This document shows, piece by piece, positions 14,207 through 33,006 of a stretch of DNA of 33,006 nt. Numbering within the stretch: position 1 is the first letter of the stretch; every line of letters starts with the position of its first letter. Both the position numbers and the translations under genes were made by a program. The notes under the pieces are model-generated. The model was given only the letters and a program-made list of their open reading frames with translations. It was not told the DNA's origin and did no database searches. Source of the stretch: a virus; IMG/VR virus record IMGVR_UViG_3300006927_000034, positions 1-33,006 of that record, one strand, 5' to 3'.

Positions 14207-14479
14207 ATGGAAGATATACCAGAAATTTGTAGTTGTGGAGCTAGGTTATCTGAGACTGTAAGAGCGCAACTTAAGCAAAATCAATCACTTAAGAAAGAAG
14301 TGGATGATGTAAAAAAGACCTGGGCTGAGGAAAATGTAGAACTTACTCAGCGCTTGAAAAAAGCCGAGGATGTGTTAGATAGTATATCTTCGCAGTCCAA
14401 TCCATCGTTTCTTGACCAGTTGGCTAAGAAATATTATGATTGGAAACATGAACAACAAACCAAGAGGAGTATGTCATGA
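14207..14479 (+). CDS. Coiled-coil protein with N-terminal CxC
   Basis: A 90-aa protein with AAAGGAGG upstream of the ATG. The N-terminus has EICSCGARL (Cys8 and Cys10), half of a possible metal site that would need a partner or a second copy in a dimer. Residues 20-58 form a coiled coil (LKQNQSLKKEVDDVKKTWAE). Its stop overlaps the next start (ATGA). The function is unknown. Confidence 0.55.
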   Translation: MEDIPEICSCGARLSETVRAQLKQNQSLKKEVDDVKKTWAEENVELTQRLKKAEDVLDSISSQSNPSFLDQLAKKYYDWKHEQQTKRSMS

Positions 14480-15528
14480 AAAAGCAACAGAAGTCACGCA
14501 TGAAAGTGACACCGGTTGTTTACAAAGAATGTAAACAGCTGTTGGAAAAAGTCGGTGTTGAAAAAGGAAAGCCAATAAGCACCGAGAGAAGTAAAGGTAT
14601 TGGAGGTGTTTTCGGATTTTCCGGTACTACTGTGATAAAAATACATCAGACAGATAGCTATCAAGGCTATAGGGACCATGTATCTAGGAGAACACGAGAA
14701 TTAAAGGCTAAGTATCCTTATTGCTATCCTTTAAAGAAACGTGTTAAAAAGAGTGATTATCTGGCCTGGTTGTTAAAGAACTGGGATAAATTTATGTCAA
14801 CAACACATAAATTAGCAAAGAAAGACACTCATGGTTATCTTGGAAAAGTGGTACATGAGTACGAAGGATATCTAAAATTCCTAGAACGTAGTATATCACG
14901 AATTAAGCCTGTGGATTTACATGAAGATGCACTCCGTCCGGGTGCTATTCATTTGACTATGTCCATTGCAGGAAGAACAAACTATAAATCAGCATATAAA
15001 CATTATTTTATGTATGATTTTAGTGATGCTTTGGCATCTATTTACAGACATAATAGATATCAAACATATTTCTGTGATTTTCAGGTAACCAATCTTGGTG
15101 TATTAAAGGCTGTAGATGGATGGATAGAGGATAAACCATTGAATCATGAAATGAAACATATTACAAAAGATGGAAATCCTTTTACTCCGATAATAAATAC
15201 TGAATTGACCAGTATGGATAAATACATCGTGAATGGAGTTCTTGCCCATTTCAAGGGTAAGAGAGTAAATCTTTCATCACATGAATTTGATAAAATGTGC
15301 AATGATGCATATCAAATATGGAGTGATGAAAGAAAAGATGGTCAAGAGAAAAATGTATATTCCAGTATATTAGTAACACTGGAAGAACATGGATTTGGGC
15401 CTAAGGAATTGGTTAAACTTCTTGATGTAAAAGAAAAAGTAATCATTTCCTGGCACAAAGCAGATAATTTACCAGAGGAGAAGTATGGCAAACGCCTGAA
15501 AGCTCTGGTAAATGTTCTGAATAAGTAG
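14476..15528 (+). CDS. 350-aa protein with two HTH-like regions, unknown
   Basis: A soluble basic protein just upstream of the ubiquitin-like gene, starting in an ATGA overlap. Residues of about 35-75 (STERSKGIGGVFGFSGTTVI, then KIHQTDSYQGYRDHV) have the rhythm of a DNA-binding helix-turn-helix with a YRDH-type ending. Residues of about 300-350 (EEHGFGPKELVKLLDVKEKV, ISWHKADNLPEEKYGKRLKA) look like an XRE-type helix-turn-helix. The middle (about 100-290) is mixed alpha/beta, with Tyr/His-rich stretches and no catalytic motif I recognise. It may regulate the operon or be the substrate or effector of the ubiquitin-like module; both are guesses from position. Confidence 0.55.
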   Translation: MKKQQKSRMKVTPVVYKECKQLLEKVGVEKGKPISTERSKGIGGVFGFSGTTVIKIHQTDSYQGYRDHVSRRTRELKAKYPYCYPLKKRVKKSDYLAWLLKNWDKFMSTTHKLAKKDTHGYLGKVVHEYEGYLKFLERSISRIKPVDLHEDALRPGAIHLTMSIAGRTNYKSAYKHYFMYDFSDALASIYRHNRYQTYFCDFQVTNLGVLKAVDGWIEDKPLNHEMKHITKDGNPFTPIINTELTSMDKYIVNGVLAHFKGKRVNLSSHEFDKMCNDAYQIWSDERKDGQEKNVYSSILVTLEEHGFGPKELVKLLDVKEKVIISWHKADNLPEEKYGKRLKALVNVLNK

Positions 15529-15551: not shown

Positions 15552-15782
15552 ATGGCGCTAGCACATGTAATCAGCTTTCATAACGGTGGAGTGATGCAAG
15601 AGGTAGATGCAGGTACGCCTGCTGAAATAGCAACTAACCTCGGTATTAGCATGGATAATACTTCTATATTTGTTGACGATAAGCAAGTAAAGGGTAGCCA
15701 TGAACTCCGAGATGGTGATGTGGTTTCGTTTCAGAAATCATCTACTAAGTCCGGTATGAAAGTGTTAGTTAGAAATCGGTAA
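15552..15782 (+). CDS. Ubiquitin-like (ThiS/MoaD-type beta-grasp) protein
   Basis: A 76-aa protein with a strong AAAGGAGG site. It fits the beta-grasp fold: strand 1 AHVISFHNG, strand 2 QEVDAG, the helix TPAEIATNLGI, strand TSIFVDDKQV, and the characteristic HELRDGDVVSFQ turn-strand (50-61) seen in ThiS/MoaD and phage or bacterial ubiquitin-like proteins. It lacks a C-terminal Gly-Gly. Instead KSG (66-68) is followed by eight residues, MKVLVRNR, so activation by the E1 would require removal of this tail, probably by the nearby JAMM protease. It opens the Ubl-E2-JAB-E1 set. Confidence 0.75.
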   Translation: MALAHVISFHNGGVMQEVDAGTPAEIATNLGISMDNTSIFVDDKQVKGSHELRDGDVVSFQKSSTKSGMKVLVRNR

Positions 15783-15804
15783 ATAAATCACCGGTTATTG
15801 GAAG

Positions 15805-15855
15805 AAGGGGGCATAGAATCCGTAATGTGGAAGCCTTAAAGTCCTATGTCCCCTT
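15805..15855 (+). promoter_or_regulatory. Long stem-loop between Ubl and E2-like genes
   Basis: AAGGGGGCATAG (15805-15816) pairs with CTATGTCCCCTT (15844-15855) over 12 positions with a single G-U pair and a 27-base loop. No proper T-tract follows. It lies in the only sizeable gap of the module, so it probably sets the ratio of the ubiquitin-like protein, needed in excess, to the enzymes, through partial termination or RNA processing. Confidence 0.55.
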
Positions 15856-15878
15856 CATAATTTTAGAAAGGAGAAGAA

Positions 15879-17624
15879 ATGAAAATTTCAACAATACCTA
15901 AAAGAGCGGAGTATGTATTTCAAGAATTATCAAATGATGCATTCAAAAGAAAGATATTTTTACAATACATATGTCTTGCATTTCCGAAATTAAGACAAAT
16001 GCATTCTGTAAGGGTACAAAAGGAACAGGTTGATATTATACTTGGAATGTTTGATAATATCAAAATAACTACAAGATGTGCCGGACAAAGACCAGATGGA
16101 GACGATAGATTACATGACCAATATAATCTATGTATTGAAATAGCATTGGGAAGACCAAGGTTAAGAGCAAGGAGAATTGCTCTATTAGATGAACTCTATC
16201 TGGTAATGGTTTGTGATTATTATATAAATGATGACAATGAATACATTCCAACTATAGAACGTGGTAATGCACGCATATTTCCAAGTTTATTAAAGTACTA
16301 TAACAGAGAGCAAAGAGGACTCTTTAAAGCTCAGGATGAAAGAGAACCTTCTTACGAAGCAGAACATCCTCATGTATCACGTGGAGGAGCTTGTTATGGT
16401 GATTTTGATAGTGGCCTTATTAATATGGCTGCTCAAGGAAATGTAGCAGGATGGTTCCAGACTCAACGTAATTGGAAAAATAACTGGTACAGACACAGTG
16501 CTTATTGGGACATAAATCATTACTTACGTCCTGACGACAATCATATCCGAGGAAATGTGATGGACAAAATAGCTGTTTCTAAATATATAAAAGAAATAGG
16601 AACCGATTGTGTAAGTAATATCTGGAAAAAAATGGCTTATAATCTAAAGAAAGAATACAATGACAAAAGGTCAGAGTTGCCAAGAATTAGTTGTCCTAAT
16701 GAAAAACATAAGCATCCAAATCGTAATGGAAGACATTCTCTTGAATTTATTTCCGATAATCCATCACTTGATGCATTGTCTGCAATGCAAGTTATTCTTG
16801 CATTTAGACTTGCTTCTAAACTGTCAGTAGCAATGGATGTTAATTATATTTCATTGCAAGAAGCCGCAGAGCAAGTAGATACTATCAGAGATAATAGTTG
16901 GCTTTGGTTGAATAGAAAATGGTTTAAACATGAAACCATTGCAAGTGATATTATGAGTTCATTGCATTATTTGCAGAATGATAGAAATATACGTGTTCAT
17001 CCAAAGGCTAATACAGATGAATGGAGTATTAGACATCATCGTATGATATCAGAGTTAGAAGCTATAAGGAATAATCTAAGTTATTATGTTGCCAATCATT
17101 TTACTTTTAAGAATATTGTAGAATGGTATAATAATTATGGTCCATTCTTTACTGAAGACCTAATTCGAGATAACTATTTCTTACAAAAAGATGATGACTA
17201 TCGTAGGCATAGTGTGTATTCGCAATTAAATCTGACTATGGAAGGTGTTCCTATGTGGGAAGGTGCAAGAGACTTATCCATACATTATACCAAAGTATCA
17301 GATTGGATTGAAAGAATACGTACTTGGTACAGAGAGAAGTATGAAGCATTGGGTGGAACCAAAGGCGGATATGCATCTGAATATTACGAATTCATAAAAA
17401 AACAACATCAAATGAATATGCCATACATGGGTACTTCTGATATTTATCAGAAGAGAAATCTTCCTAATGTTGGAAGCGAATCTATAACCGCAATGAAAAT
17501 GGATATTCATCAACAAACCGCCAGCTATTATTTAGAATGGCTGGAAAAAGAAAGGAGAAGAATAACAAATGAACCTAATAATACCCGCAAAGATGAACGA
17601 CAAACTGACCTATTTCCTGTCTGA
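15879..17624 (+). CDS. Large protein with E2-like motif
   Basis: A 581-aa protein with AAAGGAG before the ATG. At 163-174, HPHVSRGGACYG closely follows the E2 signature (HPN-I/V-x-x-x-G-x-I-C-L): an HP dipeptide, then a Gly-preceded Cys nine residues later (C172). The motif is followed by a helix and an aromatic-rich region (GWFQTQRNWKNNWYRHSAYW), as in prokaryotic E2/RWD-like proteins with HPH instead of HPN. C172 would carry the activated ubiquitin-like protein. The remainder (about 230-581) is helical, with SCPNEKHKHPNRNGRH at 271-286 as a possible metal site, and is not recognised. It may select targets as an E3 would. It overlaps the JAB gene by 56 bases. E2 function is inferred from the motif and the neighbours. 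Confidence 0.6.
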   Translation: MKISTIPKRAEYVFQELSNDAFKRKIFLQYICLAFPKLRQMHSVRVQKEQVDIILGMFDNIKITTRCAGQRPDGDDRLHDQYNLCIEIALGRPRLRARRIALLDELYLVMVCDYYINDDNEYIPTIERGNARIFPSLLKYYNREQRGLFKAQDEREPSYEAEHPHVSRGGACYGDFDSGLINMAAQGNVAGWFQTQRNWKNNWYRHSAYWDINHYLRPDDNHIRGNVMDKIAVSKYIKEIGTDCVSNIWKKMAYNLKKEYNDKRSELPRISCPNEKHKHPNRNGRHSLEFISDNPSLDALSAMQVILAFRLASKLSVAMDVNYISLQEAAEQVDTIRDNSWLWLNRKWFKHETIASDIMSSLHYLQNDRNIRVHPKANTDEWSIRHHRMISELEAIRNNLSYYVANHFTFKNIVEWYNNYGPFFTEDLIRDNYFLQKDDDYRRHSVYSQLNLTMEGVPMWEGARDLSIHYTKVSDWIERIRTWYREKYEALGGTKGGYASEYYEFIKKQHQMNMPYMGTSDIYQKRNLPNVGSESITAMKMDIHQQTASYYLEWLEKERRRITNEPNNTRKDERQTDLFPV

Positions 17625-18411
17625 ATTTAAAAAGACGGAATGGAGTGGGCCTGCATGGTACACAGTGACTAAGTCAGATAAGAAGGGATTTCCCAAAACA
17701 TGGAAACTTGTTCATTTTGTACCTATAGACCTGGGACATTCAGCAGCAACTGAATTTTCAGCAAAAGCATTAGTAAAAACTATTAAAAAGCTTTACAAAG
17801 AAATGCCTCAGCTGTCTAAATGTTATCTTGGTTTAATACATAGCCACCATTCAATGGGTGCTTATTATAGTGGAACTGATGAGGATACTATGATAGATAA
17901 TGCACCAAACGAAGGATTCTATGGTAGCTTGGTAGTGGCATCATCCGGCAAAGAAGGATATGCTTTTGCTTTTAGTTATCTTGACCAATATGACAAACCA
18001 ACTGTCATAGAACTGGAAGAAGATAAAATAGATGTAGAGGTATTGACAAAGGTACCGGAAGCATGGACAAAAGAAGCAAAGGAAATCCGTAGGAAATCCA
18101 CGATAAAGAAGAAAGCTGATGCTAAAGCCAAAGAAACATCTCAAGGTACATTTGGCTGGAGATATTCCAACGGGCAGCAAAGTCCCACTAAAACAGAAAT
18201 CATAGAATCAGCTGTTTTTGCTAACAAAAGACTAAATCAACCGGTTACAGAAGTAGCGGCTAAAGAAAATAGTCTTACTGTAGCTCAAGAAGCTGATATG
18301 GAAGACTTAGAAGCTGCATATCTAGCCAATGAAATAACCTTCGAACAGTACAAATACGAATGTAAAAATCAATTTGGGATAGACCCAGTGATGTACTATG
18401 GTGGATTCTAA
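17569..18411 (+). CDS. JAMM/JAB-domain metalloisopeptidase
   Basis: A 280-aa protein with AAAGGAG upstream of the ATG; a second in-frame ATG at 17593 is an alternative start. The zinc motif is complete: H91 and H93 in GLIHSHHSMGAYYSGTDED, S101 and D104, which is HxHx7SxxD, with E24 as the probable catalytic Glu. Flanking strands (WKLVHFVPIDLGHSA, GFYGSLVVASSG) fit the JAB fold. The C-terminal ~45 residues (DLEAAYLANEITFEQYKYEC) look like a SHOCT-type two-helix module. It should trim the tail of the ubiquitin-like protein and/or remove it from targets. Its stop overlaps the E1 start (TAATG). Confidence 0.92.
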   Translation: MNLIIPAKMNDKLTYFLSEFKKTEWSGPAWYTVTKSDKKGFPKTWKLVHFVPIDLGHSAATEFSAKALVKTIKKLYKEMPQLSKCYLGLIHSHHSMGAYYSGTDEDTMIDNAPNEGFYGSLVVASSGKEGYAFAFSYLDQYDKPTVIELEEDKIDVEVLTKVPEAWTKEAKEIRRKSTIKKKADAKAKETSQGTFGWRYSNGQQSPTKTEIIESAVFANKRLNQPVTEVAAKENSLTVAQEADMEDLEAAYLANEITFEQYKYECKNQFGIDPVMYYGGF

Positions 18412-19097
18412 TGGAGTTACGAAACAGATTCCTTAGAAATAAGGACTTAATAGACCAGAAGTCTTTGGATGAAGTAATGATAATCGGATTAGGTGGCGTG
18501 GGCTCTGCTCTCGTCACCAATCTGAGCATCATGGGATTTGACAGAATCATTGGATATGATGACGATGTGCTTGAGGACCATAATCTATCAAGTACAGTAT
18601 ATCCAGTAAATGAAGTTGGTAATTCAAAAGCAAGAGCTGCTGAATATCAAGCATTAGCTTACGGATGTCCTACACCTGTAATGTTTGAAAAACGATGGAC
18701 TCCTAGTAGCAATCTTTCTAGCAAAATGATTGTTTGCCCTGATAATAATGAAGTAAGACTTCAAGCTTACCAGGCGTGGTGGGATAATACTGATGAAGGA
18801 TTTTTCATTGACTTAAGGATGGATGCCCTGCAAATGGAAATAGTAGCAAAAACAAAGCCTGATGGAGTAGGACATAAGGGGCCTGATACAGAGTATCTTG
18901 ATTATTGGAAATCCAGTGACCAGATAGAAGATGCACCATGTACAATGAAACATACGATATTTACTTCAAGCATTTTATCGGGATTTGGTATAGACCAAGT
19001 CTTTAATCTGCTTGGAAAAAGACCGTATTATCGGTACATTTGGATAGGGCTGACGCCTCTTATTATCAGTAAGGAAAGACTGATATCTGGCTATTAA
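18411..19097 (+). CDS. ThiF/E1-like ubiquitin-activating enzyme
   Basis: A 228-aa protein whose ATG overlaps the stop of the JAB gene. The nucleotide site GLGGVG is at 26-31, followed by RIIGYDDDVLEDHNLSS (45-61) with the ribose-binding Asp50 and Asn58, and VGNSKA at 69-74 with the conserved Lys73. The Arg-Gln that usually follows Asn-Leu is replaced by Ser-Ser/Thr, a departure from ThiF and MoeB. A candidate catalytic cysteine is C177 in EDAPCTMKHT, before a helix that resembles the E1 crossover region. There is no CxxC zinc site. It should adenylate the C-terminus of the ubiquitin-like protein and pass it to the E2-like partner. Confidence 0.9.
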   Translation: MELRNRFLRNKDLIDQKSLDEVMIIGLGGVGSALVTNLSIMGFDRIIGYDDDVLEDHNLSSTVYPVNEVGNSKARAAEYQALAYGCPTPVMFEKRWTPSSNLSSKMIVCPDNNEVRLQAYQAWWDNTDEGFFIDLRMDALQMEIVAKTKPDGVGHKGPDTEYLDYWKSSDQIEDAPCTMKHTIFTSSILSGFGIDQVFNLLGKRPYYRYIWIGLTPLIISKERLISGY

Positions 19098-20249: not shown

Positions 20250-22025
20250 ATGTGGTATGAAATAGCGGTAGGCAGTCCTCGTAACAGAGGATTGCTTACC
20301 GACCTTACTGCTCTCAATCTAAAAGCAGAGAGAAAAGGCAGTAAGGTTCCTGTATATAGGTCTACTTATTATTATAACGACGAAGGCAGAGAATTCGCAC
20401 TTAAACATAACAGCATAAAAGGATATCTTGGATGGAGAGGTATAGACATATTACCTCTTGATGTAGATTATATTACAGGTCATAATGAAACATTGCAAAA
20501 GGCATTGCATATTTATGATTGTTTATTAACTGCAACCATACCTAAAAAATATATAAATATATATTATAGTGGAACAGGATATCATTTTGAAATGGCTGCT
20601 AGTTTATTTGAATTCCCTGAAGGACCAGACTTACCTTGGATTGTAAAAAATACATTAAAACGAATATCACCTGATATTGATTTAAGTATTTATTCAAGAA
20701 GTGCATTATATAGAATGCATAATACAAAAAACTTTAAGTCTGGTTTGTTCAAAATACAATTATCAAGACAAGATTTTCAAGGATTTACATCCAAGGAAAT
20801 AAGAGAACTTGCTAGAACAAGAAATGCATGGAGCAATAACCACTTACCTACGAAAGGAGAAATGAAAGGTATAGTTGTAAAAGAAGTTCCTTCAGTAAGA
20901 AGTCTTGAAAGAGTACGAGAACCTGATAAAGTAGTACCTTGTGTACAAGAGATGTATACACTAGGGCCACAAGAAGGTAGTCGTCATGACATTATGATGA
21001 GAATTGCTTCCCATTTTAGAAGAAATGGTATTCCATCTGATGCTACTAAGGCAGCGATACTTTCATGGAATAACAACTCTATGGCTGAAGCAACTGTTTT
21101 AGGTAATATAGAAGATGTATATAATGCTGGATATCAATACGGCTGTCATGATGAAATTATGGCAGCACATTGCAAAGAGCATTGTATATATTTTAAAAGA
21201 AAGGACTATCTTATGAATGTATATAACTCTGATGAACTCCAAGATTTATTAATGGAAAGACTGAATACAAACTTTGAAGGAAGAGCTATTGACCTTTCTC
21301 ATATGTTTGGACTAGGTCAAGTAGATTCATTAGTATATCCTGGTGAACTAATGACCATATATGGTCAGACTGGTGCCAATAAAACAGCTTTGGCACAGAA
21401 CATTGCTTTGGCGTATAATTCCGCAACTGACTCTATTGATGAAGATAAGCAGATTAAGACTCTGTATTTATCATTAGAATTAAGTGCATGGATGATGCAA
21501 AGAAGAAATCTTCAAATTGTTAGTAATTGTAACAAAGAAGAAGTCTTAACTAATCCTAATGAATTATACAAGAAGTATCGAAAACTACTAGACCATATAA
21601 CTATACAAGTTATTAGTCCTAGTATAGAAGGGATACAGGCTAAAATACGGGAAATTCAACCGGCCTGTGTCATTGTAGATTACGTTGACCTTATAGAACC
21701 ACCACCAGGCGTAAGGGGTGAGTATGAAACAATAAAATTCATATCACATTCCTTAAGCAAAATAGCTGTCACAAATGATATTATTGTCATTCAAATCAGC
21801 CAAATATCTAGAGAATATTCAAGAGGAGATATCATTGACCTATTCGCAGGGAAAGGCAGTGGAGCAATAGAAAATGCCTCAAGAAAAGTTCTGGGTATAG
21901 GTGGTAAGGCAAATAATCAATATAAAAAGGTTGAAGCATTAAAAAACAGTGATGGTGACCTCTGGGAAGTAGAACTTGAATTCCAAGAGTCATTTAGAAT
22001 GAGGAGAAAAGACCATGGTAACTAA
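20250..22025 (+). CDS. Primase-helicase (AEP primase + DnaB-like helicase)
   Basis: A 591-aa replication protein. The N-terminal half is archaeo-eukaryotic primase-like: the DxD acids D71 and D73 in ILPLDVDY, SGTGYH at 107-112, and a third-motif-like IYSRSALYRMHNTK at 147-160. A Cys/His cluster, GCHDEIMAAHCKEHC, at about 298-312 may bind metal. The C-terminal half is a RecA-type DnaB helicase: Walker A GQTGANKT at 372-379, LYLSLELSAW, Walker B CVIVDYVDLI, and IIVIQISQISREYSRG. It would unwind DNA and prime it at the fork. It has almost no gap to the SSB-like gene, so translation is coupled. Confidence 0.9.
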   Translation: MWYEIAVGSPRNRGLLTDLTALNLKAERKGSKVPVYRSTYYYNDEGREFALKHNSIKGYLGWRGIDILPLDVDYITGHNETLQKALHIYDCLLTATIPKKYINIYYSGTGYHFEMAASLFEFPEGPDLPWIVKNTLKRISPDIDLSIYSRSALYRMHNTKNFKSGLFKIQLSRQDFQGFTSKEIRELARTRNAWSNNHLPTKGEMKGIVVKEVPSVRSLERVREPDKVVPCVQEMYTLGPQEGSRHDIMMRIASHFRRNGIPSDATKAAILSWNNNSMAEATVLGNIEDVYNAGYQYGCHDEIMAAHCKEHCIYFKRKDYLMNVYNSDELQDLLMERLNTNFEGRAIDLSHMFGLGQVDSLVYPGELMTIYGQTGANKTALAQNIALAYNSATDSIDEDKQIKTLYLSLELSAWMMQRRNLQIVSNCNKEEVLTNPNELYKKYRKLLDHITIQVISPSIEGIQAKIREIQPACVIVDYVDLIEPPPGVRGEYETIKFISHSLSKIAVTNDIIVIQISQISREYSRGDIIDLFAGKGSGAIENASRKVLGIGGKANNQYKKVEALKNSDGDLWEVELEFQESFRMRRKDHGN

Positions 22026-22590
22026 GGTAGACATTGCTCACAAGAAATTGGAAAGCAGAAATTCAATAACATCCCTTATAGGAGACTATATGCAATTAGT
22101 TCATGAACATGAAGCTAATTCAGATGATGTTGCTTATACTGATACATTGGAAGCAGTTCAAGGACAGATAAAGAAAAAGATAGAAGACATAGATGTATTT
22201 TCTCTTGAAGTAAAGAGAAAGGAATTCTTTATAGATGCTGAGATAGAAGCTCTAGCAGAGGAAATACAACGTCTGAAATCAAGGAAAAGAGCTATTGGTA
22301 GATTTAAACAGTTCATGGAAAATATGATATTACCATGGGCAATAAAGAAATTTGGCAATGGCAAAGTATGGGAAACATCTTATGCTAGGTATACAATGTA
22401 CGAAGCATATGGTGAATTAGATGTTCACGTACCATTGGAAAAAGTTCCTGATGATTACAAGAAAGTAGAAATAAAGGAAGGTGTCAACCGGTCTTTGGCA
22501 AGAAAAGATTCCATGGCGGCACAAAAAGATGGAAAAGATGGACTGAGTTGGTGCAGAGTAAAGAAAATAACGAAAGTGAGAAGGTCATGA
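22015..22590 (+). CDS. Siphovirus Gp157-like protein
   Basis: A 191-aa protein whose start lies inside the end of the helicase gene, with GAGGAG upstream. The plan is an N-terminal helical part, a long coiled coil FIDAEIEALAEEIQRLKSRK and FKQFMENMILPW at about 75-110, then a strand-rich domain with VPDDYKKVEIKEGVNRSLAR. This is the pattern of Gp157-type phage proteins (PF05565), usually encoded in replication/recombination clusters beside SSB and helicase genes. The molecular role is unclear. Confidence 0.7.
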   Translation: MVTKVDIAHKKLESRNSITSLIGDYMQLVHEHEANSDDVAYTDTLEAVQGQIKKKIEDIDVFSLEVKRKEFFIDAEIEALAEEIQRLKSRKRAIGRFKQFMENMILPWAIKKFGNGKVWETSYARYTMYEAYGELDVHVPLEKVPDDYKKVEIKEGVNRSLARKDSMAAQKDGKDGLSWCRVKKITKVRRS

Positions 22591-23066: not shown

Positions 23067-23507
23067 ATGGATTATAAAGAAGGAACATTCAGAGAAAAAT
23101 TGGTGAAAGTTCACCATACCTATTGGCATAAAGCATGGTTAAGATTAAATAGAAAAATGTCAGCATTAAAATCATCCTTAAAAAGACGCTCAAAAGAAGC
23201 AGGAGTAGAATTCAACATTGAACTGAATGATATTAAAAAAATGTTTTACGATATCTACGGAAAAAAATGTAAATACTGCAACGAAGTTCTAAACATAAGG
23301 ACTATAGCATGTGACCATATAATTCCAATTACTAAAGGCGGAGCATCTACACCTGATAATCTTCAGTTGATATGTAAAAGATGTAACACAAGGAAAGGGC
23401 CATTAGACGAATGTGATTATGAAACAGTTGTTAAATGGGTAAGACGTCAATCTGATGAAGTACGTACCTATCTAATGAAAAAACTAGCAAAAGGAGGCAA
23501 ATACTAA
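23067..23507 (+). CDS. HNH endonuclease
   Basis: A 146-aa protein. The HNH/treble-clef core is complete: CKYC in GKKCKYCNEVL (about 69-72), ACDHIIPITKGG with the catalytic DH (about 84-85), NLQLICKRCNTRKG with the Asn of the motif and the second CxxC. The basic N-terminal helix RLNRKMSALKSSLKRRSKEA may bind DNA. Free-standing HNH proteins in phages are homing endonucleases or nucleases for host DNA breakdown or packaging; this one lies in the replication region with no visible intron. The start lacks a clear ribosome binding site because the inverted repeat precedes it. Confidence 0.88.
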   Translation: MDYKEGTFREKLVKVHHTYWHKAWLRLNRKMSALKSSLKRRSKEAGVEFNIELNDIKKMFYDIYGKKCKYCNEVLNIRTIACDHIIPITKGGASTPDNLQLICKRCNTRKGPLDECDYETVVKWVRRQSDEVRTYLMKKLAKGGKY

Positions 23508-25263: not shown

Positions 25264-26475
25264 TCATCCTATTATTTCATCGGCTAGGCCCGGTATATTT
25301 TTGAATTTCTTGTCATAACCATAACGTCCTTCATAGTATTTTTTCATCAAACCAGATACTATACCACCAGGTTTACTCTTTCTCCATTTTTGCATCAGCT
25401 CTTCAGCTTTACGCGTAGCATCCTTAGCTTGTGTATAAAAATCAACACCTGCCCTTTTAGAATAATCCATTGGGTCTAACTTTATTACCTCGGGAAGCCC
25501 ACGATGATTTAACGCTACAAATTTATTTGACTGACCATAAAAATTAAACTGAGTAGGGTCTATACCTGTAATAGCACCTAATTCATCACGTAAGTTATGG
25601 AACTTATCAGACCACGTATAACCATGTCTACGTCCTTCCATCCCTCTGAAATATCTTCTTAATTTTTCTCCAGAAGAAGCATTCTTCTTATGTAATATTC
25701 TATGTGGTTCATACTCTTTCTTTACTATAGCTCTTACCTTATCTATTGCTTCCCTAGCTATCGCAACCTTTGAATTATTTTTAGCAGCCTTATCTATATA
25801 ATACTTCTTTAAAGCGTTCTGGAATGTACCAGTACCCATATATGAAACTTCCGAAAAATAAGGTGCCAATCTTTTTTTCCATTTTTTACTTGTAATTTCT
25901 ATGGCATCGTCATATCCCCCTACTGGGTCAACCCATGAATGTAATTTACCCACACCTACATCATCTGTTCTTGACCCTCCAGACACCACCCACTGCTCCC
26001 CCATCTTTCCGCTAGGCGAACCTTTGGGTGAACTTCTGAGTTCATATTTATCAACTTTATCCCAATTTACTACTCTCGGAGATTCAGGGGTACCAACTTT
26101 CCACCCTGCAGGCGGCGTATGATAGTGAGGTATGGAAGGTTTGAAATTTTTTGGACTAAGCAATTCTTTTTTCTTAGCTAAAGCAGTTTTAGCGGCTTTC
26201 TCTTCTGTTTTCTTTATAAGAGCAACACTGCCTTGAAAACCCCTTCCTTGTACTACATCTACAAGAACTTTTTGCTTAGCCCGTAGCTTCGCACCTTCAT
26301 GTAATAACTTATTATGTATATTTAATTCGTCAGCTATACCAGCTGACCTCGTAAAGAACTGGCGCCTAGTCATAGGACCAGAAGCAACAGCACCTGCTAC
26401 CCTGGTAAGCTTAGAAGGCAATGCTCCCGTATTTACTAAAACACTTAAGGCTCTCCCTAATAATCCAACAGCCAT
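25264..26475 (-). CDS. Putative internal virion protein, unknown
   Basis: A 403-aa, very basic protein joined to the giant gene by TAATG. The N-terminus (1-30) is hydrophobic and small-residue-rich (MAVGLLGRALSVLVNTGALP). The middle has a Pro/Gly-rich part (IPHYHTPPAGWKVGTPESPR) and the C-terminal ~200 residues are helical and Lys/Arg-rich. An RRQFFTRSAG stretch at 37-46 resembles a twin-arginine motif but is probably coincidental. Translational coupling to the giant RNA-polymerase-like protein suggests the two work together, for example as ejected virion cargo. No fold is recognised. Confidence 0.55.
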   Translation of the reverse strand: MAVGLLGRALSVLVNTGALPSKLTRVAGAVASGPMTRRQFFTRSAGIADELNIHNKLLHEGAKLRAKQKVLVDVVQGRGFQGSVALIKKTEEKAAKTALAKKKELLSPKNFKPSIPHYHTPPAGWKVGTPESPRVVNWDKVDKYELRSSPKGSPSGKMGEQWVVSGGSRTDDVGVGKLHSWVDPVGGYDDAIEITSKKWKKRLAPYFSEVSYMGTGTFQNALKKYYIDKAAKNNSKVAIAREAIDKVRAIVKKEYEPHRILHKKNASSGEKLRRYFRGMEGRRHGYTWSDKFHNLRDELGAITGIDPTQFNFYGQSNKFVALNHRGLPEVIKLDPMDYSKRAGVDFYTQAKDATRKAEELMQKWRKSKPGGIVSGLMKKYYEGRYGYDKKFKNIPGLADEIIG

Positions 26476-29400
26476 TAAATAAATCCTCTAGGAGCTGTCT
26501 TAGGTTTCTCCCTCTCCTCCACTATCGTTCTATGCAGCTGCATATAAGGTAGTCCTGTCAGCTTCTCTACGCTACGCATAGGATTCTCAAGGATACCACC
26601 AGGCCCTGCTATGTCCCTTGCCATCCTACCAAATGGAAACATAGTCCATATATAATAATTAGATAGCCTGGTATAATCATCAGTAACCATAGCCTTAAAG
26701 GTAGCAGGCAACAACCTAGCAAGAGGAGGGGTAATCATCTGCAATGGCTGCAAAGGTGCGGGATAAGCACCAAAGAACGCTCTCTCACGCTCGTTATCAT
26801 CGCCAAACATCATCTCAGCAGTGTCCTGAAACCAGTTCCACGGTGCAGGTAAAGCATTCTCAAATATGGAATACATAAATACATTAGCAAGACCAAGCAT
26901 GAATAAGTCTGCTGTCGCCATCCTTTTGTACTTCTCAAATTCTTGTGTGCCTTCACGCCAACCATATATATGAGCCTGGTTAATAATATCCTTCCTAAAT
27001 CTAACAGAGTTCCAAGACCACAACTGAAACCTCGTATATACCTTGCCAAATTGTGTCCTTGCAAAGGCAGGTCTATAAGGAGCACTGTATAAGAACTGTG
27101 TAGCCTTCACACCCTTCTTAGCCATCTCAATAAGAAGAGGATGATTATAATCACCTATCATACCGCCAAATCTTTCAACAGCCGCTAAGTAATGAGAAAT
27201 AAAAGCATCCCTTCTCAATGTCCTCTCTGGTATCCGCATAAATGCAGCAGCTTTATTAAATATACTATCACTTATCTTATGCTTCCTTGCTATCTCCCTC
27301 AGCGTAACATCAGATAGGTTCGGGTCTTTAGCAATCTTAGCCACTCCTTCCTTCACAAAACTTCTCCATCTTGCAGATTTTGCGCCAGGTGTCAAGCCTG
27401 ATAAACCTTCATAAAGAAGGAACTCCTCAACAATACCATGTCCCTTCACCCAATCATATAAATCTCCCTTAGATTTCCACTCCTTATTTATAGTCTGCAT
27501 ATGTTTTATATCACGAGCGTTCTTAAAGTGTTCAGCTCCTACATTTATCCAAGTATGAACACTACCACCATACATATTAGCAGTACTACTCTTGATGTGA
27601 GCTAATAAAGTAGCCAGTTCATATTTAGCTTCCAGTTGCCCTAGCCTTCTCAAAGAATTCCAGTCGTTCTCTATCAATTCTTTTGGTAGGTCAGGTCTCT
27701 TCTTATCAAATCCTAGAAGCCTCTTCATGTTATTTAATTTTTTTAATATCCTATTATCTGCCCACCAAGCATAAGGCGTTCCTTTAATTTTCATAGTTGG
27801 GTCATTTAGAAGTCTATCAGGTACAACACTAGGGCCACCCTGAGCTTCATTAGAATACATTTGGAACCAATTAGCCCACGAATTAGCCAGCTCCGGGCCT
27901 AGCCTACGTCCCCACACCTTTCTAAATCCCACTATAGCATCACGAGCTACAATATCAGCTCCTTGAGAATAGAAAGCATTTAAAATGTTCTTCATATACA
28001 TATCGTATGCTTCAGGAGAAGTATTCCAACCCGGAACATGAACTGTCCTACTAAACTGGTTACCCACACGCCTATTAACATTAAATGCTTTTAGTTCTTC
28101 TACAGATTTAACCTTACCCTTAGCTATCTCATTCATAACATTATGAATTATATCCCAAGAGCCACCCATATCTTCCGACCTCTGTATCCAATCACCAGTT
28201 ACCTGCTTGTGATGATAGACTAATTTCTTCAACGTCTTCTCCCTATCAACAGAGTCATACGATTTGTCAGCAGCAACAATCTTTATAGCCCTAGACAGTT
28301 CCTTTTCAGCAACCTTCCTATCAAACATAACATGAGGCCAGTACATATCCGGGTCTATCTGTCCGGTGGGTTCCATAGCATACTTCTCTATCATAATATT
28401 TCGTTGCAACTGACGCTGCTGTTCTTTCTGGTTAGAAGTCATTCTATCAAAACTTGATGCTTTCTTACCCATCCTATCTCTTATTAAATGGTCTAGTCCT
28501 CTATTAGGTACCTGCAACACCATGATTCTCTTACCTATCTCCCTGAGACCATCCATTCCTATATTAATATCTAATTTCTTACCATCAGTAGCTTCTTTTG
28601 CTCTGTCCCGCATGTAAGTATCTCTTAATCTTTTCAGCCCAAGATGAGTACCATCATCAAGACCGATATATCTATTTGCAGCTATTCCGTCTCCTTGGAG
28701 CCAGGTAATAACCTCTTTATTCTGTGCTTCTATAACTTTCTGTATCTTTCTTACAACTTCCTTTCCTGTAACTGTTTTAGCTTCTCCGGCTTCTCTAACC
28801 ACGTACTTCTTATTCTGCAGTTCATTCCAATTAGTTGTTTTATATACTCTCCTCATTGCATCTTTATAATTACCCATATAATATTTGAATATATCTCTAC
28901 CCTTATGCTGTGCAGTTATATGTTTATTTGCATACCTATTATCCATCTGAATAACAGCAACATCAAACAGTTTTACCCCATCTTCTAAAGCATACACATA
29001 TGGGTCTAGCTTATCCGCAAGCTTTACCACCTCTTCCTGGTGTGTTCCTGTTGCATGTTCCTGTGCCTTGCCGTGCCATTGCATAAGTTCTTCTACTATA
29101 TTGGTAGGCCTATATACCTCACCCGACATAGCATTACCTCTCTGGTCAAGAAACATACCTCTTCCTTTCACCAGCTTCATTTCACCACGCATTATATCAA
29201 GATTTACAGTCTCAGGGAAATTCATATAATGTCTCTTTGCAAGTTTTACAAATCCTGTCTTATCATCCAGCTTCGCAAACATACGTTGATACCACGTACC
29301 TGTCCTCATCTGTGTAAACCATCTATCAAGAATTCTAAAATCTTCTAATGTCATCGCATTTAAATTCTTACCTATAACTGTCCTCACAAGACCATTTAAT

Positions 29401-32400
29401 CGCCTGCCTGTTATACCAGGGCGATAATAATTGATGTGGTCTTCCAAAGAAGAAAGAACCTTACGTGCATCTCTATTCAATTTGCCTTTATAAAGTCCTT
29501 CAAAGGGAGAATGTTCATTAATATACTTCTTTGTTTCCACATCAAAGTCAGATGATTCAATAATGCTCCCCTCTACAGGCTTACCATCCTCATCAAACAT
29601 CCTTTGTTTCCTCTCTGCGTCCTTTGCTTCTTCTACTAAATCATCAGTAGCCTTCTTATTTAATCCTTTAATATTCATATCAAAGAAGTCACTATAAGCT
29701 TTAACAAATTTTCTAACACTAGTATCAGGCACCATGCTAGTCATAAATCCTAGCTTAGAAGTACTAGTACCTGATGATTCCAATGTCCACTTATGTATCT
29801 GGTCCCTCATCTTATCAGTCATCTTGCCCGGCTTTATCTTACGCATCTGCTTCTCTATTATATCAACCTTCCCCCTATTCAGACTACCAAGAAGAAACAT
29901 ATCAAAAAGGTTCCTCTCTGCAACATTTAAACCAGCCCGATAAGTACCTATAGCTATATCCATAACATTCTGAGAATGTTTATTAGCCTGTACATCTTGA
30001 GTCAGAGCCTTCTCTGTTTCTATCAACCAATCTTTAGCCCACTCTTCTTCTACCATATTATACATCTTTTCATAGTCAGGTCTTTGGTTGCTTGTAAAGT
30101 TCTTATGCTCTGACTTATAAGCCTCAGTCTGTCTATGTATTTCTAAGATTCTATCAGGGTTAGCAATAGGAATTGCAGCTTCCATAATAACCTTCATACT
30201 TGCCATGTCAGATATATCATTAATAAGATAATGCTCTGCTTTCCTCTGCATATCTAAAAGCCATCTTTTCCTTTGCGTATAATTTTCTTTCATCACATCA
30301 AATACTTCGGGTTTAAATCTCTTTCGATAGATGGAGAAATTATCAAAAATATTTTTATCATAATCTTTATGCTTAGGATTTAACTGAGCCTCAAAACCAT
30401 CATCAGTAAATAACCTTTTATCCCAAACCACTTTAATATAATCATGTTGAGGAACAGCCATACTCTTTCTAAGAAGAACATTTTTTAACCAATCATATCT
30501 AGACAAATTCTTTTCATGTATACTATACATAGCATCCATCTTTGTCTTGTCAACTCTATGAAAAACACTATCGCTCCAATCTACGTTCTCTACATCTCTA
30601 GCAATCTTACCTAACAATGTATTCCTGCTACTCTCTGGTATACCAGGGAACCATAGCGGAATATTATCCTTATTAAACCTGAAATTATTTTCATTCCCAA
30701 CAATCCCCAGCCTGTGCATTATCTCTGGTCTAGTCCACCGTTTCTTGTTTGTAAAATCTCTACCATACAGCGCTGTATTTACACCACTAAACATCCTTGT
30801 TAAACCACGACCTTTCATCCATTGCTTCACCTTTAGCCCCTTCCACTGCTCTCCCTGCATGCCATGAACTGTGAAATCAAACAGGCTATCTATCATTGCA
30901 TCGCTAAATACTTTCCTTGGTCTTAGCCCTGATTCATCCATAGGGTCAGAGCTGAATGATACAGCAGCTCTGGCAAGCTCTCTAAAATTATCCATCTCTT
31001 TCTTACCAGTCTTAGCTTTCATGTGCACTCTAAATTTTCTAGGTTTTTTATTTATATAAAATTCTTCTTCCCACACATAAGTACCTTTCGGAGCACGAAT
31101 AAACATCTGTTTGCCCCCAGGGGTCTCTACTCTCACTGTCCTTTTCTCTAAATCAGCTACAGCTGCATGAGCTGCTGCTATAGTTGTTCTTCCCACAACA
31201 TTAGTTCCCAGTTTAGTACGACCTTCAGCTGAACCTTCAGAAGCAAACTGCCTCATCCACGGAGAAAACATAAGAACTGAAGAATCATTCATTCCCTTTA
31301 GAAGGTCATCCTGCTTCTTATTTCCTGTTCCTGTTAATTTAGAACGCCACTTAGCTTTAGCATCCTCCGCACTAGCTATATTATTTGCTTCTTTATTAAA
31401 AAATTCTCCTTTGTTCTTATCATACATATCCTTCCAAGACTTTTTAAATCCATGTGTCTCATCTCCAAAGAATATCCAAGACTTATCTCCGTCTAAATCT
31501 GCACCACCCAGAGCCTTGGCTGTCCTAGGATGTATTAATACTCCTAAACCATCTATACCGGTGAATCCAGAGAATTTTAGGACGTGAGCTCCAGATATAT
31601 TATCCATAGGGACACGCATTAAGACAGCATTGAATATCTCTTCTACTGCAGGTCTATTAGTCTCAGATATCTGTCCCTTATGATACTTCTCCCATAAATC
31701 TCCGAGAGTAATAAACTCTCTCTCCCTACCAAACATATCAGTTCTTATCTTTAACTCTTTAAATGTATTATCTAAAAAGAATATATTATCATTATCATTC
31801 AATTCTTTAGTCGGGCCTCTTCTTTTAGTTCTATTCCATAAACCTATATCATACGGACGCATCCTAGCAGCAGCACTATTATCAATAAGAGGACGAGTAA
31901 ATCTATGGACTACATAGTTACGCACTACAGATTCCCTATAATCATTCGAATACTTATGAAACGCACCAGCTAAACTATCCTTAGCGAATCTTATTATTCT
32001 TTCATGAATTGCATTGAACTCTACTGCATCTACCTTCTCATCTAATAAGTTCTCCCTTGTTAATTCTCCCTCTCCAACCATCTCGTGAATAATATCATCA
32101 TTAACACGCATCATTTTCCGATAAGCATTACTAGCAAATACTGTATCCTCTTTTATCCCCTTCACTAGCCTCTCTATACTAATCTTATCTATATCTCTTA
32201 CTAAATCTTCGACAATAGTTTGATTACCCTTCGGATTTGCCAAGAACACATCCATCTTTTTATTCACCTCAGGGTCACCCTCTCTTCCTCTACCTGATAA
32301 GGTTTCATACATATCTGATATAGATTCGCGGAATATAGGAAAAGAAGAAAATGGAGTTAATACAGACTGCATCTGTTTTGGTACTCTCTGTGGGTCTAAG

Positions 32401-33006
32401 AAATGTAGGTCTGTTATATCGGATGTAACAGTCTTCATATCTTGGATGGGCAACTTATACAATACCGACTCATCAACAGGATTTCCTTTCAAGTCCTGCA
32501 TCTCTATCTTACCATCCTTATCTCTTGCTATTTTATAGAAGGCTCTACTACCCGATTGCTTAGCTGAAGAAGTATTAATAAGAAAATGCATTCCTTTCTT
32601 CTTCATGTAGATTGCAAGCTCTGGGGAGGCTGTATGTATCGCATACTTGCCCAATAGAGCCCCGTATTGGGGGCTAGGAGACACGATAAATGATTTATGG
32701 ATACCACCTTCGACTGGGAGCCCTTGCTCCCTGTTTAGGCCCTTTACGACATCTGGACGCCCTATTACACCACCATCTTCGCTTTCTAGATATTCCCTCG
32801 CTTTTGATTCAATATTCAATTTGCTTTGGTCTACGCCTAATCCTTCCACATCATGTACTAACCCAAATTTAAAAGAACCACCCAGGGAAGTTTCATATTG
32901 AATATTTAATCCAAGTTTTTTAGCATAATTAATTTCTTCTTGCATTAACCTGCCAATACCATGAGTATCATCAACAATTACAGTTGACCCCTTTGGCATT
33001 GAATCC
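26475..33006 (-). CDS. Giant protein with RNA-polymerase DxDGD motif (5' partial)
   Basis: The frame is open to the right edge, so the protein exceeds 2,174 aa; numbering here is from the ATG at 32999. Residues 465-520 contain RVPMDNISGAHVLKF, HPRTAKALGGADLDGDKSWIF; D501-L-D503-G-D505 is the DxDGD metal-binding signature of the beta'-type double-psi barrel of cellular-type RNA polymerases. Upstream, K102, K118 and K147, in GGIHKSFIV, LLGKYAI and NTSSAKQSG, are candidates for the lysines of the first, beta-type barrel. The C-terminal third is helical and polyvalent-protein-like, with a hydrophobic stretch at about 2027-2055 (LFMLGLANVFMYSIF). It lies on the same strand as the virion genes, so a virion-ejected polymerase like those of crAss-like phages is inferred. 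Confidence 0.65.
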   Translation of the reverse strand, partial: DSMPKGSTVIVDDTHGIGRLMQEEINYAKKLGLNIQYETSLGGSFKFGLVHDVEGLGVDQSKLNIESKAREYLESEDGGVIGRPDVVKGLNREQGLPVEGGIHKSFIVSPSPQYGALLGKYAIHTASPELAIYMKKKGMHFLINTSSAKQSGSRAFYKIARDKDGKIEMQDLKGNPVDESVLYKLPIQDMKTVTSDITDLHFLDPQRVPKQMQSVLTPFSSFPIFRESISDMYETLSGRGREGDPEVNKKMDVFLANPKGNQTIVEDLVRDIDKISIERLVKGIKEDTVFASNAYRKMMRVNDDIIHEMVGEGELTRENLLDEKVDAVEFNAIHERIIRFAKDSLAGAFHKYSNDYRESVVRNYVVHRFTRPLIDNSAAARMRPYDIGLWNRTKRRGPTKELNDNDNIFFLDNTFKELKIRTDMFGREREFITLGDLWEKYHKGQISETNRPAVEEIFNAVLMRVPMDNISGAHVLKFSGFTGIDGLGVLIHPRTAKALGGADLDGDKSWIFFGDETHGFKKSWKDMYDKNKGEFFNKEANNIASAEDAKAKWRSKLTGTGNKKQDDLLKGMNDSSVLMFSPWMRQFASEGSAEGRTKLGTNVVGRTTIAAAHAAVADLEKRTVRVETPGGKQMFIRAPKGTYVWEEEFYINKKPRKFRVHMKAKTGKKEMDNFRELARAAVSFSSDPMDESGLRPRKVFSDAMIDSLFDFTVHGMQGEQWKGLKVKQWMKGRGLTRMFSGVNTALYGRDFTNKKRWTRPEIMHRLGIVGNENNFRFNKDNIPLWFPGIPESSRNTLLGKIARDVENVDWSDSVFHRVDKTKMDAMYSIHEKNLSRYDWLKNVLLRKSMAVPQHDYIKVVWDKRLFTDDGFEAQLNPKHKDYDKNIFDNFSIYRKRFKPEVFDVMKENYTQRKRWLLDMQRKAEHYLINDISDMASMKVIMEAAIPIANPDRILEIHRQTEAYKSEHKNFTSNQRPDYEKMYNMVEEEWAKDWLIETEKALTQDVQANKHSQNVMDIAIGTYRAGLNVAERNLFDMFLLGSLNRGKVDIIEKQMRKIKPGKMTDKMRDQIHKWTLESSGTSTSKLGFMTSMVPDTSVRKFVKAYSDFFDMNIKGLNKKATDDLVEEAKDAERKQRMFDEDGKPVEGSIIESSDFDVETKKYINEHSPFEGLYKGKLNRDARKVLSSLEDHINYYRPGITGRRLNGLVRTVIGKNLNAMTLEDFRILDRWFTQMRTGTWYQRMFAKLDDKTGFVKLAKRHYMNFPETVNLDIMRGEMKLVKGRGMFLDQRGNAMSGEVYRPTNIVEELMQWHGKAQEHATGTHQEEVVKLADKLDPYVYALEDGVKLFDVAVIQMDNRYANKHITAQHKGRDIFKYYMGNYKDAMRRVYKTTNWNELQNKKYVVREAGEAKTVTGKEVVRKIQKVIEAQNKEVITWLQGDGIAANRYIGLDDGTHLGLKRLRDTYMRDRAKEATDGKKLDINIGMDGLREIGKRIMVLQVPNRGLDHLIRDRMGKKASSFDRMTSNQKEQQRQLQRNIMIEKYAMEPTGQIDPDMYWPHVMFDRKVAEKELSRAIKIVAADKSYDSVDREKTLKKLVYHHKQVTGDWIQRSEDMGGSWDIIHNVMNEIAKGKVKSVEELKAFNVNRRVGNQFSRTVHVPGWNTSPEAYDMYMKNILNAFYSQGADIVARDAIVGFRKVWGRRLGPELANSWANWFQMYSNEAQGGPSVVPDRLLNDPTMKIKGTPYAWWADNRILKKLNNMKRLLGFDKKRPDLPKELIENDWNSLRRLGQLEAKYELATLLAHIKSSTANMYGGSVHTWINVGAEHFKNARDIKHMQTINKEWKSKGDLYDWVKGHGIVEEFLLYEGLSGLTPGAKSARWRSFVKEGVAKIAKDPNLSDVTLREIARKHKISDSIFNKAAAFMRIPERTLRRDAFISHYLAAVERFGGMIGDYNHPLLIEMAKKGVKATQFLYSAPYRPAFARTQFGKVYTRFQLWSWNSVRFRKDIINQAHIYGWREGTQEFEKYKRMATADLFMLGLANVFMYSIFENALPAPWNWFQDTAEMMFGDDNERERAFFGAYPAPLQPLQMITPPLARLLPATFKAMVTDDYTRLSNYYIWTMFPFGRMARDIAGPGGILENPMRSVEKLTGLPYMQLHRTIVEEREKPKTAPRGFI

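Follow-up and report, generated by a model that had tools for sequence, protein, structure and literature searches.

Why should a bacterial virus carry, among its replication genes, what looks like a full set of genes for ubiquitin-like conjugation? The question is raised by a 33,006-base stretch of viral DNA (IMG/VR virus record IMGVR_UViG_3300006927_000034; hereafter, the window). Known bacterial ubiquitin-like systems have been discussed mostly as weapons against phages; the complete set found here appears to be a core gene block of the phages themselves, beside replication genes. A sequence-only reading of the window had proposed four adjacent plus-strand genes encoding a beta-grasp ubiquitin-like protein (Ubl), an E2-like protein, a JAMM isopeptidase (JAB), and a ThiF/E1 enzyme. 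We find all four (coordinates in Table 1), the last three overlapping as described (E2/JAB by 56 nt; JAB/E1 by 1 nt, TAATG), with AGGAG-type ribosome sites ahead of the first three. Judging from the folds, catalytic residues, family-wide conservation, inheritance as a unit, and constant primase-helicase linkage that we computed, these genes probably constitute a complete phage-encoded pathway of ubiquitin-like conjugation and deconjugation at the core of a replication-gene cluster.

The AlphaFold model of the 76-residue Ubl, built with 53 Ubl sequences, has the beta-grasp fold that had been set beforehand as a test for this protein (mean predicted local distance difference test score [pLDDT] of 82), and Foldseek placed SUMO, NEDD8, archaeal ubiquitin, and TtuB among the closest solved structures; its profile also matches ThiS (2cu3, E = 1.3e-4). 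Only two residues are invariant in the family, a Ser and a Gly that close the domain, present in 55/55 homologues. Counted by alignment column, 0–2 residues follow this pair in 46 of the 55, and 8 follow it in the window protein (Ser67-Gly68, then MKVLVRNR). The window Ubl is predicted to be a precursor that is trimmed to ..STKSG, and the model is consistent with a beta-grasp modifier whose C-terminal Gly can be reached by processing.

The putative processing enzyme, JAB, matches Pfam Prok-JAB at 26.4 bits (cut-off 25), and the HxHx7SxxD motif noted earlier reads HSH-x7-SGTD; E24, H91, H93, S101, and D104 are invariant in about 107 homologues. It is predicted both to process the Ubl precursor and to deconjugate. 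E1 scores 39.3 bits against Pfam ThiF (cut-off 28.1), and its profile matches ThiF, MccB, UBA5, NAE, SAE2, UBA1, Cap2, and BubCD in the PDB. Its landmarks are an N-terminal RFLRNKD motif, which aligns with RYSRN of a solved ThiF-type protein, GLGGVGS, D50/D52, N58, K73, D111, and C177 in PCTMKHT. C177 and the residues of the ATP site are conserved without exception in 100/100 homologues, which points to an adenylation domain plus a conserved Cys, with C177 as the candidate catalytic residue. PADLOC and NCBIfam scans returned relationships of E1 and JAB only, far below membership, and a JAB profile scan of bacterial genomes found no relative.

For the 581-residue protein, where an E2/RWD fold was the corresponding test, we predict a UBC-type core (about residues 17–215) around the HPHV...C motif of the sequence-only reading, located at residues 163–172 (H163-P-H165 and C172). 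In the AlphaFold model (built with 69 E2 sequences), helices, a beta-meander, HPH...C, and two helices follow each other in the order of the UBC fold, with pLDDT mostly 84–94 for the N-terminal helices, the opening strands, and the post-Cys helices, falling to about 60 in the region of the last strand. The firmer link to UBC comes from profiles rather than from Foldseek. Compared by hhalign with a hand-entered set of eukaryotic UBC sequences, the E2 domain of a related cellular branch (see below) aligned over 109 columns at 95.4% (reversed UBC, 0.2%) and a mixed, phage-dominated E2 core at 64.7% (reversed profiles, 0.2%); hidden Markov model (HMM) matches, down to 3e-18, connect the phage E2s with the cellular ones. 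Counted without a motif filter, HPHx4-7C occurs in 76/89 E2s, and the other 13 comprise 7 complete proteins (H[PS]H, with another spacing to the Cys where inspected) and 6 partial open reading frames (ORFs); H-[PS]-H...C is present in every complete homologue inspected. Profile searches of PDB sequences with the whole E2 and with its core gave chance matches only; tblastn of the 581-residue protein against cultured phages came up empty, as did a scan of viral contigs with the single sequence, and the family became visible only because its JAB and E1 neighbors led there. The partial model, with its weak fold matches, is consistent with an E2/UBC fold carrying the His and the catalytic Cys.

The survey of gene neighbors that the sequence-only reading had proposed began from E1: a single-sequence scan gave 16 viral loci, with JAB and upstream E2-sized and Ubl-sized genes wherever the sequence sufficed, and profile scans turned up E1 relatives on 341 contigs and JAB relatives on 354. 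Upstream sequence was long enough at 43 distinct loci, and in 39 of them HMMs recover the order Ubl-E2-JAB-E1; in L056 and L083 the HMM missed E2 and the gene at its place has HPH...C, and in FpV4 and cr126_1 divergent Ubl and E2 genes occupy the right places. The order is thus present in all 43 (HMM misses and divergent versions included), a recurrence far beyond chance. Downstream, a 230-residue protein and the primase-helicase follow in 54/54 relatives with sequence and an endonuclease VII-like gene in 52/54; the genes upstream vary. When contigs were instead selected by primase (the best 80 of 553 matches to a query built from module-bearing loci), E1 and JAB were found in 39/39 with at least 2.6 kb upstream, and with 5.2 kb upstream E1 and JAB scored in 24/24, Ubl in 22/24, and E2 in 20/24; the inspected loci lacking an HMM match do carry divergent Ubl and E2 genes. 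A highly divergent module with the same synteny is found in L265/L266 (L265 2282-5622), where Ubl ends in DKVGG and the E2 motif, FGTVCLDK, is close to the eukaryotic GSICLD motif; L221 has a divergent E2 with HPHSSSGNDLC. A gap of roughly 0.5–0.7 kb separates JAB from E1 in L015, L142, L143, L147, L149, and L154, and in L015 it contains a 142-residue gene. Protein distances of the module genes correlate with those of the primase (r 0.67–0.86), and the module looks like a vertically inherited core rather than accessory cargo.

In a maximum-likelihood tree (midpoint root, for drawing only), phage E1s fall into one group (100/99) and those of crAss-like and FpV phages into a second (100/99); these two clades come together only moderately (94/72), and both are united with a cellular four-gene branch, apart from all other ThiF proteins (100/97). 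The cellular operons (L156–L178), possibly undescribed before, come from Myxococcales, Ignavibacteria, Nitrospinae, and candidate-phyla bacteria (metagenome-assembled genomes). Like the phage module they comprise Ubl, E2 (HPHxxxxGxPCxGN), JAB, and E1, in the same order in most; unlike it, they have a short E2 with the UBC domain at its C-terminus and a Ubl that ends in GG (KVEGG), whose gene follows E1 in some genomes. A DnaG-type primase, Rad52, or Prim-Pol lies close to some of these operons, and one cellular Ubl (L164) scores above the ThiS cut-off.

In crAss001, gp79-gp76 lie between a DNA primase and a uracil-DNA glycosylase and are annotated as hypothetical/hypothetical/metalloprotease/ThiF. 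Here, as in Flavobacterium phage FpV4, the order is Ubl-E2-JAB-E1, the location is the replication region, and JAB and E1 are homologous to those of the window phage. Most crAss/FpV4 Ubls share its domain end (K-S-G or R-S-G) but, unlike it, usually have a long C-terminal extension; the E2 has HSH and a longer insertion before the Cys, and E1 may carry an N-terminal extension. Genes for E2 and Ubl of the crAss type were found in 45 phage records each. By hhalign, crAss E2 compared directly with UBC was negative (0.2%), crAss E2 against the phage E2 core gave 71%, and crAss Ubl against phage Ubl gave 25%; the case for homology of Ubl and E2 in crAss phages is thus made mainly by their position, their motifs, and the JAB/E1 neighbors. 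On this comparison, gp79-gp76 is best read as a divergent version of the module. In cr106_1 (L288 5501-6704), an HNH endonuclease gene splits the Ubl domain (..KIKSGKF) from its former C-terminal extension, so that the Ubl stops two residues past KSG, a naturally occurring clue that Ser-Gly closes the domain. Elsewhere, Xanthomonas phage PhiXhv-12 (L206 3280-6654) encodes an 892-residue protein with ..RIHPHMAVPSSQESHGSLCLGSF; its neighbors are a ThiF-like protein and topoisomerases, and this jumbo phage probably has a further E2-E1 pair, with no JAB or Ubl recognized.

Median pairwise ratios of nonsynonymous to synonymous substitution (dN/dS), from pairs that are not independent, are 0.09 for the primase, 0.14 for Ubl, 0.14 for E1, 0.24 for JAB, and 0.53 for E2; the Ubl, E1, and JAB values indicate that the module is under purifying selection. 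When E2 was split in well-aligned pairs, dN/dS was 0.25 for the UBC core and 0.41 for the C-terminal region, with the latter higher in 15/16 pairs. Such fast change fits target recognition, or simply weaker constraint, and the C-terminal half may be what chooses the target.

How the proposed pathway would operate we infer, for every chemical step, from what is known of the families. JAB would trim the Ubl precursor after the invariant Ser-Gly; E1 would adenylate that Gly and load Ubl on Cys177; Ubl would then pass to Cys172 of E2, the C-terminal region of E2 would pick the target to which Ubl is joined, and JAB could take it off again. The target would most likely be a phage protein of replication or recombination, or else one of the host's encountered at the replication complex, a host factor being favored by the fast change of the E2 C-terminal region if that change is adaptive. 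The sequence-only reading had listed a weapon, a decoy, and a modification needed for replication among possible roles; of these, a function tied to replication is preferred, given that the module is core and keeps synteny with the primase-helicase, and a weapon or decoy is less favored. If this is true, we are dealing with a virus-encoded modification pathway, whose biochemical signature would be a Ser-Gly remnant on lysine after trypsin.

Several points weigh against a complete, replication-tied pathway. The arginine of NLxRQ, usual in ThiF/MoeB, is replaced in E1 (NLSST), although the cellular E1 relatives lack it too (NLPNQ). Most of the C-terminal half of E2 is modeled at pLDDT below 50 (mostly helical at this low confidence), and Foldseek with the whole E2 gave no significant match, the leading PDB entries (TSG101 UEV, an E2 relative; E 0.17–1) being suggestive only. 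Pfam and NCBIfam match neither phage nor cellular E2s, the raised dN/dS of E2 may be relaxed constraint, the primase survey depends on the query and the selection given above, and the connection with replication genes is one of guilt by association.

The same machinery might serve counter-defense, disabling host immune or housekeeping proteins. Within the module, nothing changes faster than the E2 C-terminal region, as expected if it tracks changing host targets, and related families act in phage-bacterium conflict (PMC10097602). Typical accessory anti-defense genes are not, however, fixed and syntenic in a lineage as the module is (39/39 among the best 80 of 553), and its dN/dS stays below 1; we regard counter-defense as unlikely.

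Defense of the Bil or CBASS (cyclic oligonucleotide-based antiphage signaling system) kind, or superinfection exclusion, in which the phage modifies its rivals, seems to us very improbable. Bil (BilA-BilB-BilC-BilD) has the gene order Ubl-E2-deubiquitinase-E1, so that the four components and their order are shared, and E1 matches the PADLOC E1-E2 and BilD models below membership. Ubl and E2, however, match no PADLOC model, E1 reaches only 19 bits against BilD, and in 54/54 relatives the module lies in the replication operon of the phage itself. The likeness to Bil that the sequence-only reading had pointed out thus stands for gene order and class of mechanism and falls for family membership. 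With type II CBASS the module shares the E1 adenylation domain (Cap2) and the JAB class (Cap3); Cap2, however, fuses E2 with E1, and CBASS lacks a Ubl of its own, whereas all the phage genes are separate, and Pfam found no nucleotidyltransferase among ten proteins around the module.

PRTRC, which we take to be operon type 6d of the literature, was a further candidate. The phage E1 scores 24 bits against PRTRC_ThiF (TIGR03736; cut-off 144.75) and 22 bits at the DNA level. Bacterial operons that combine Ubl, E2, JAB, and E1 were predicted by Iyer et al. (2006; PMC1779556), who also described phage tail proteins with Ubl and JAB; their type 6d shares with the module a Ubl with a C-terminal Gly, an E2-like, a JAB, and an E1-like protein, but its E2 lacks the upstream His and it has an extra helical protein, whereas the phage E2 has HPH before the Cys and the module in the window has no extra gene. 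Plasmid searches returned distant ThiF proteins only, or nothing, and PRTRC is therefore set apart by models and description, with no locus compared. No phage set that includes E1 and E2 is described in the passages of the same paper (PMC1779556) covered here; the Bil-like system mentioned in a hankyphage study (PMC12135933) belongs to the host, not to the phage; and in full-text literature covering few subscription journals and preprints, we found no description of the module.

We consider highly improbable a sulfur-carrier relay (ThiS/ThiF with JAB) such as those of thiamine, molybdopterin, or tRNA thiolation. ThiS and ThiF are the nearest profiles of Ubl and E1, but an E2 with its conserved catalytic motif is always present, E1 has no rhodanese domain, and most Ubl tails in the phage clade are SG or NG, not GG. 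The window Ubl itself, with a domain that ends in SG, scores 15.1 bits against the ThiS model (cut-off 22.5). By these family tests, the module is outside Bil, CBASS, PRTRC, and ThiS, yet would share their general mode of action. The Ubl might instead be processed without being conjugated and serve as a structural or assembly factor, a role suggested for the lambda tail proteins I and K. Ubl and JAB do occur in lambdoid tail modules (PMC1779556), but here E1 and E2 are present and the genes sit with replication, not tail, genes, and we regard this reading as extremely improbable.

Returning to the replication-tied pathway, it should be noted that the module is also carried by cultured crAss001, DAC15, and FpV4, where its genes are annotated only as "hypothetical," "metalloprotease," or "thiamine biosynthesis." That bacterial viruses, from crAss-like gut phages to abundant uncultured ones, have their own full cascade, indispensable to their DNA-replication programme, with a fast-evolving region fused to E2 choosing the target, is a wider proposal that we advance tentatively, as a serious possibility falling short of probable.

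Table 1. The four module genes and their downstream neighbors in the window.
Feature	Position	Strand	Evidence
Ubl, 76 aa	15552..15782	+	AlphaFold beta-grasp model; SUMO/NEDD8/TtuB folds; ThiS 2cu3 profile match; SG in 55/55
E2-like, 581 aa	15879..17624	+	Predicted UBC core; H163-P-H165, C172; hhalign to UBC; weak TSG101-UEV folds
JAB/JAMM metalloprotease, 280 aa	17569..18411	+	Pfam Prok-JAB above cut-off; metal-site residues invariant
E1/ThiF-like activating enzyme, 228 aa	18411..19097	+	Pfam ThiF above cut-off; PDB profile matches; C177 in 100/100
Conserved protein, 230 aa	19557..20249	+	Directly downstream of module in 54/54 relatives; matches no family
Primase (PriCT-1) - DnaB-type helicase	20250..22025	+	Always downstream of module in lineage
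Gp157/Gam-like protein	22015..22590	+	
Endonuclease VII-like nuclease	23067..23507	+	In 52/54 relatives

The virus record is classed as linear, and the window is therefore probably a fragment. Its minus strand carries terminase, portal, and major head protein genes and its plus strand the replication genes; its possible placement in Crassvirales was considered from the terminase, whose nearest matches, at 24–30% identity, are those of Bacillus-type phages, and the phage has no close cultured relative. Just upstream of the Ubl gene, a 350-residue ORF (14476-15528) has no homologue in 25 relatives, and on the minus strand a 2174-residue ORF (26475-32999) has an N-terminal portion of 1166 residues that matches no PHROG.

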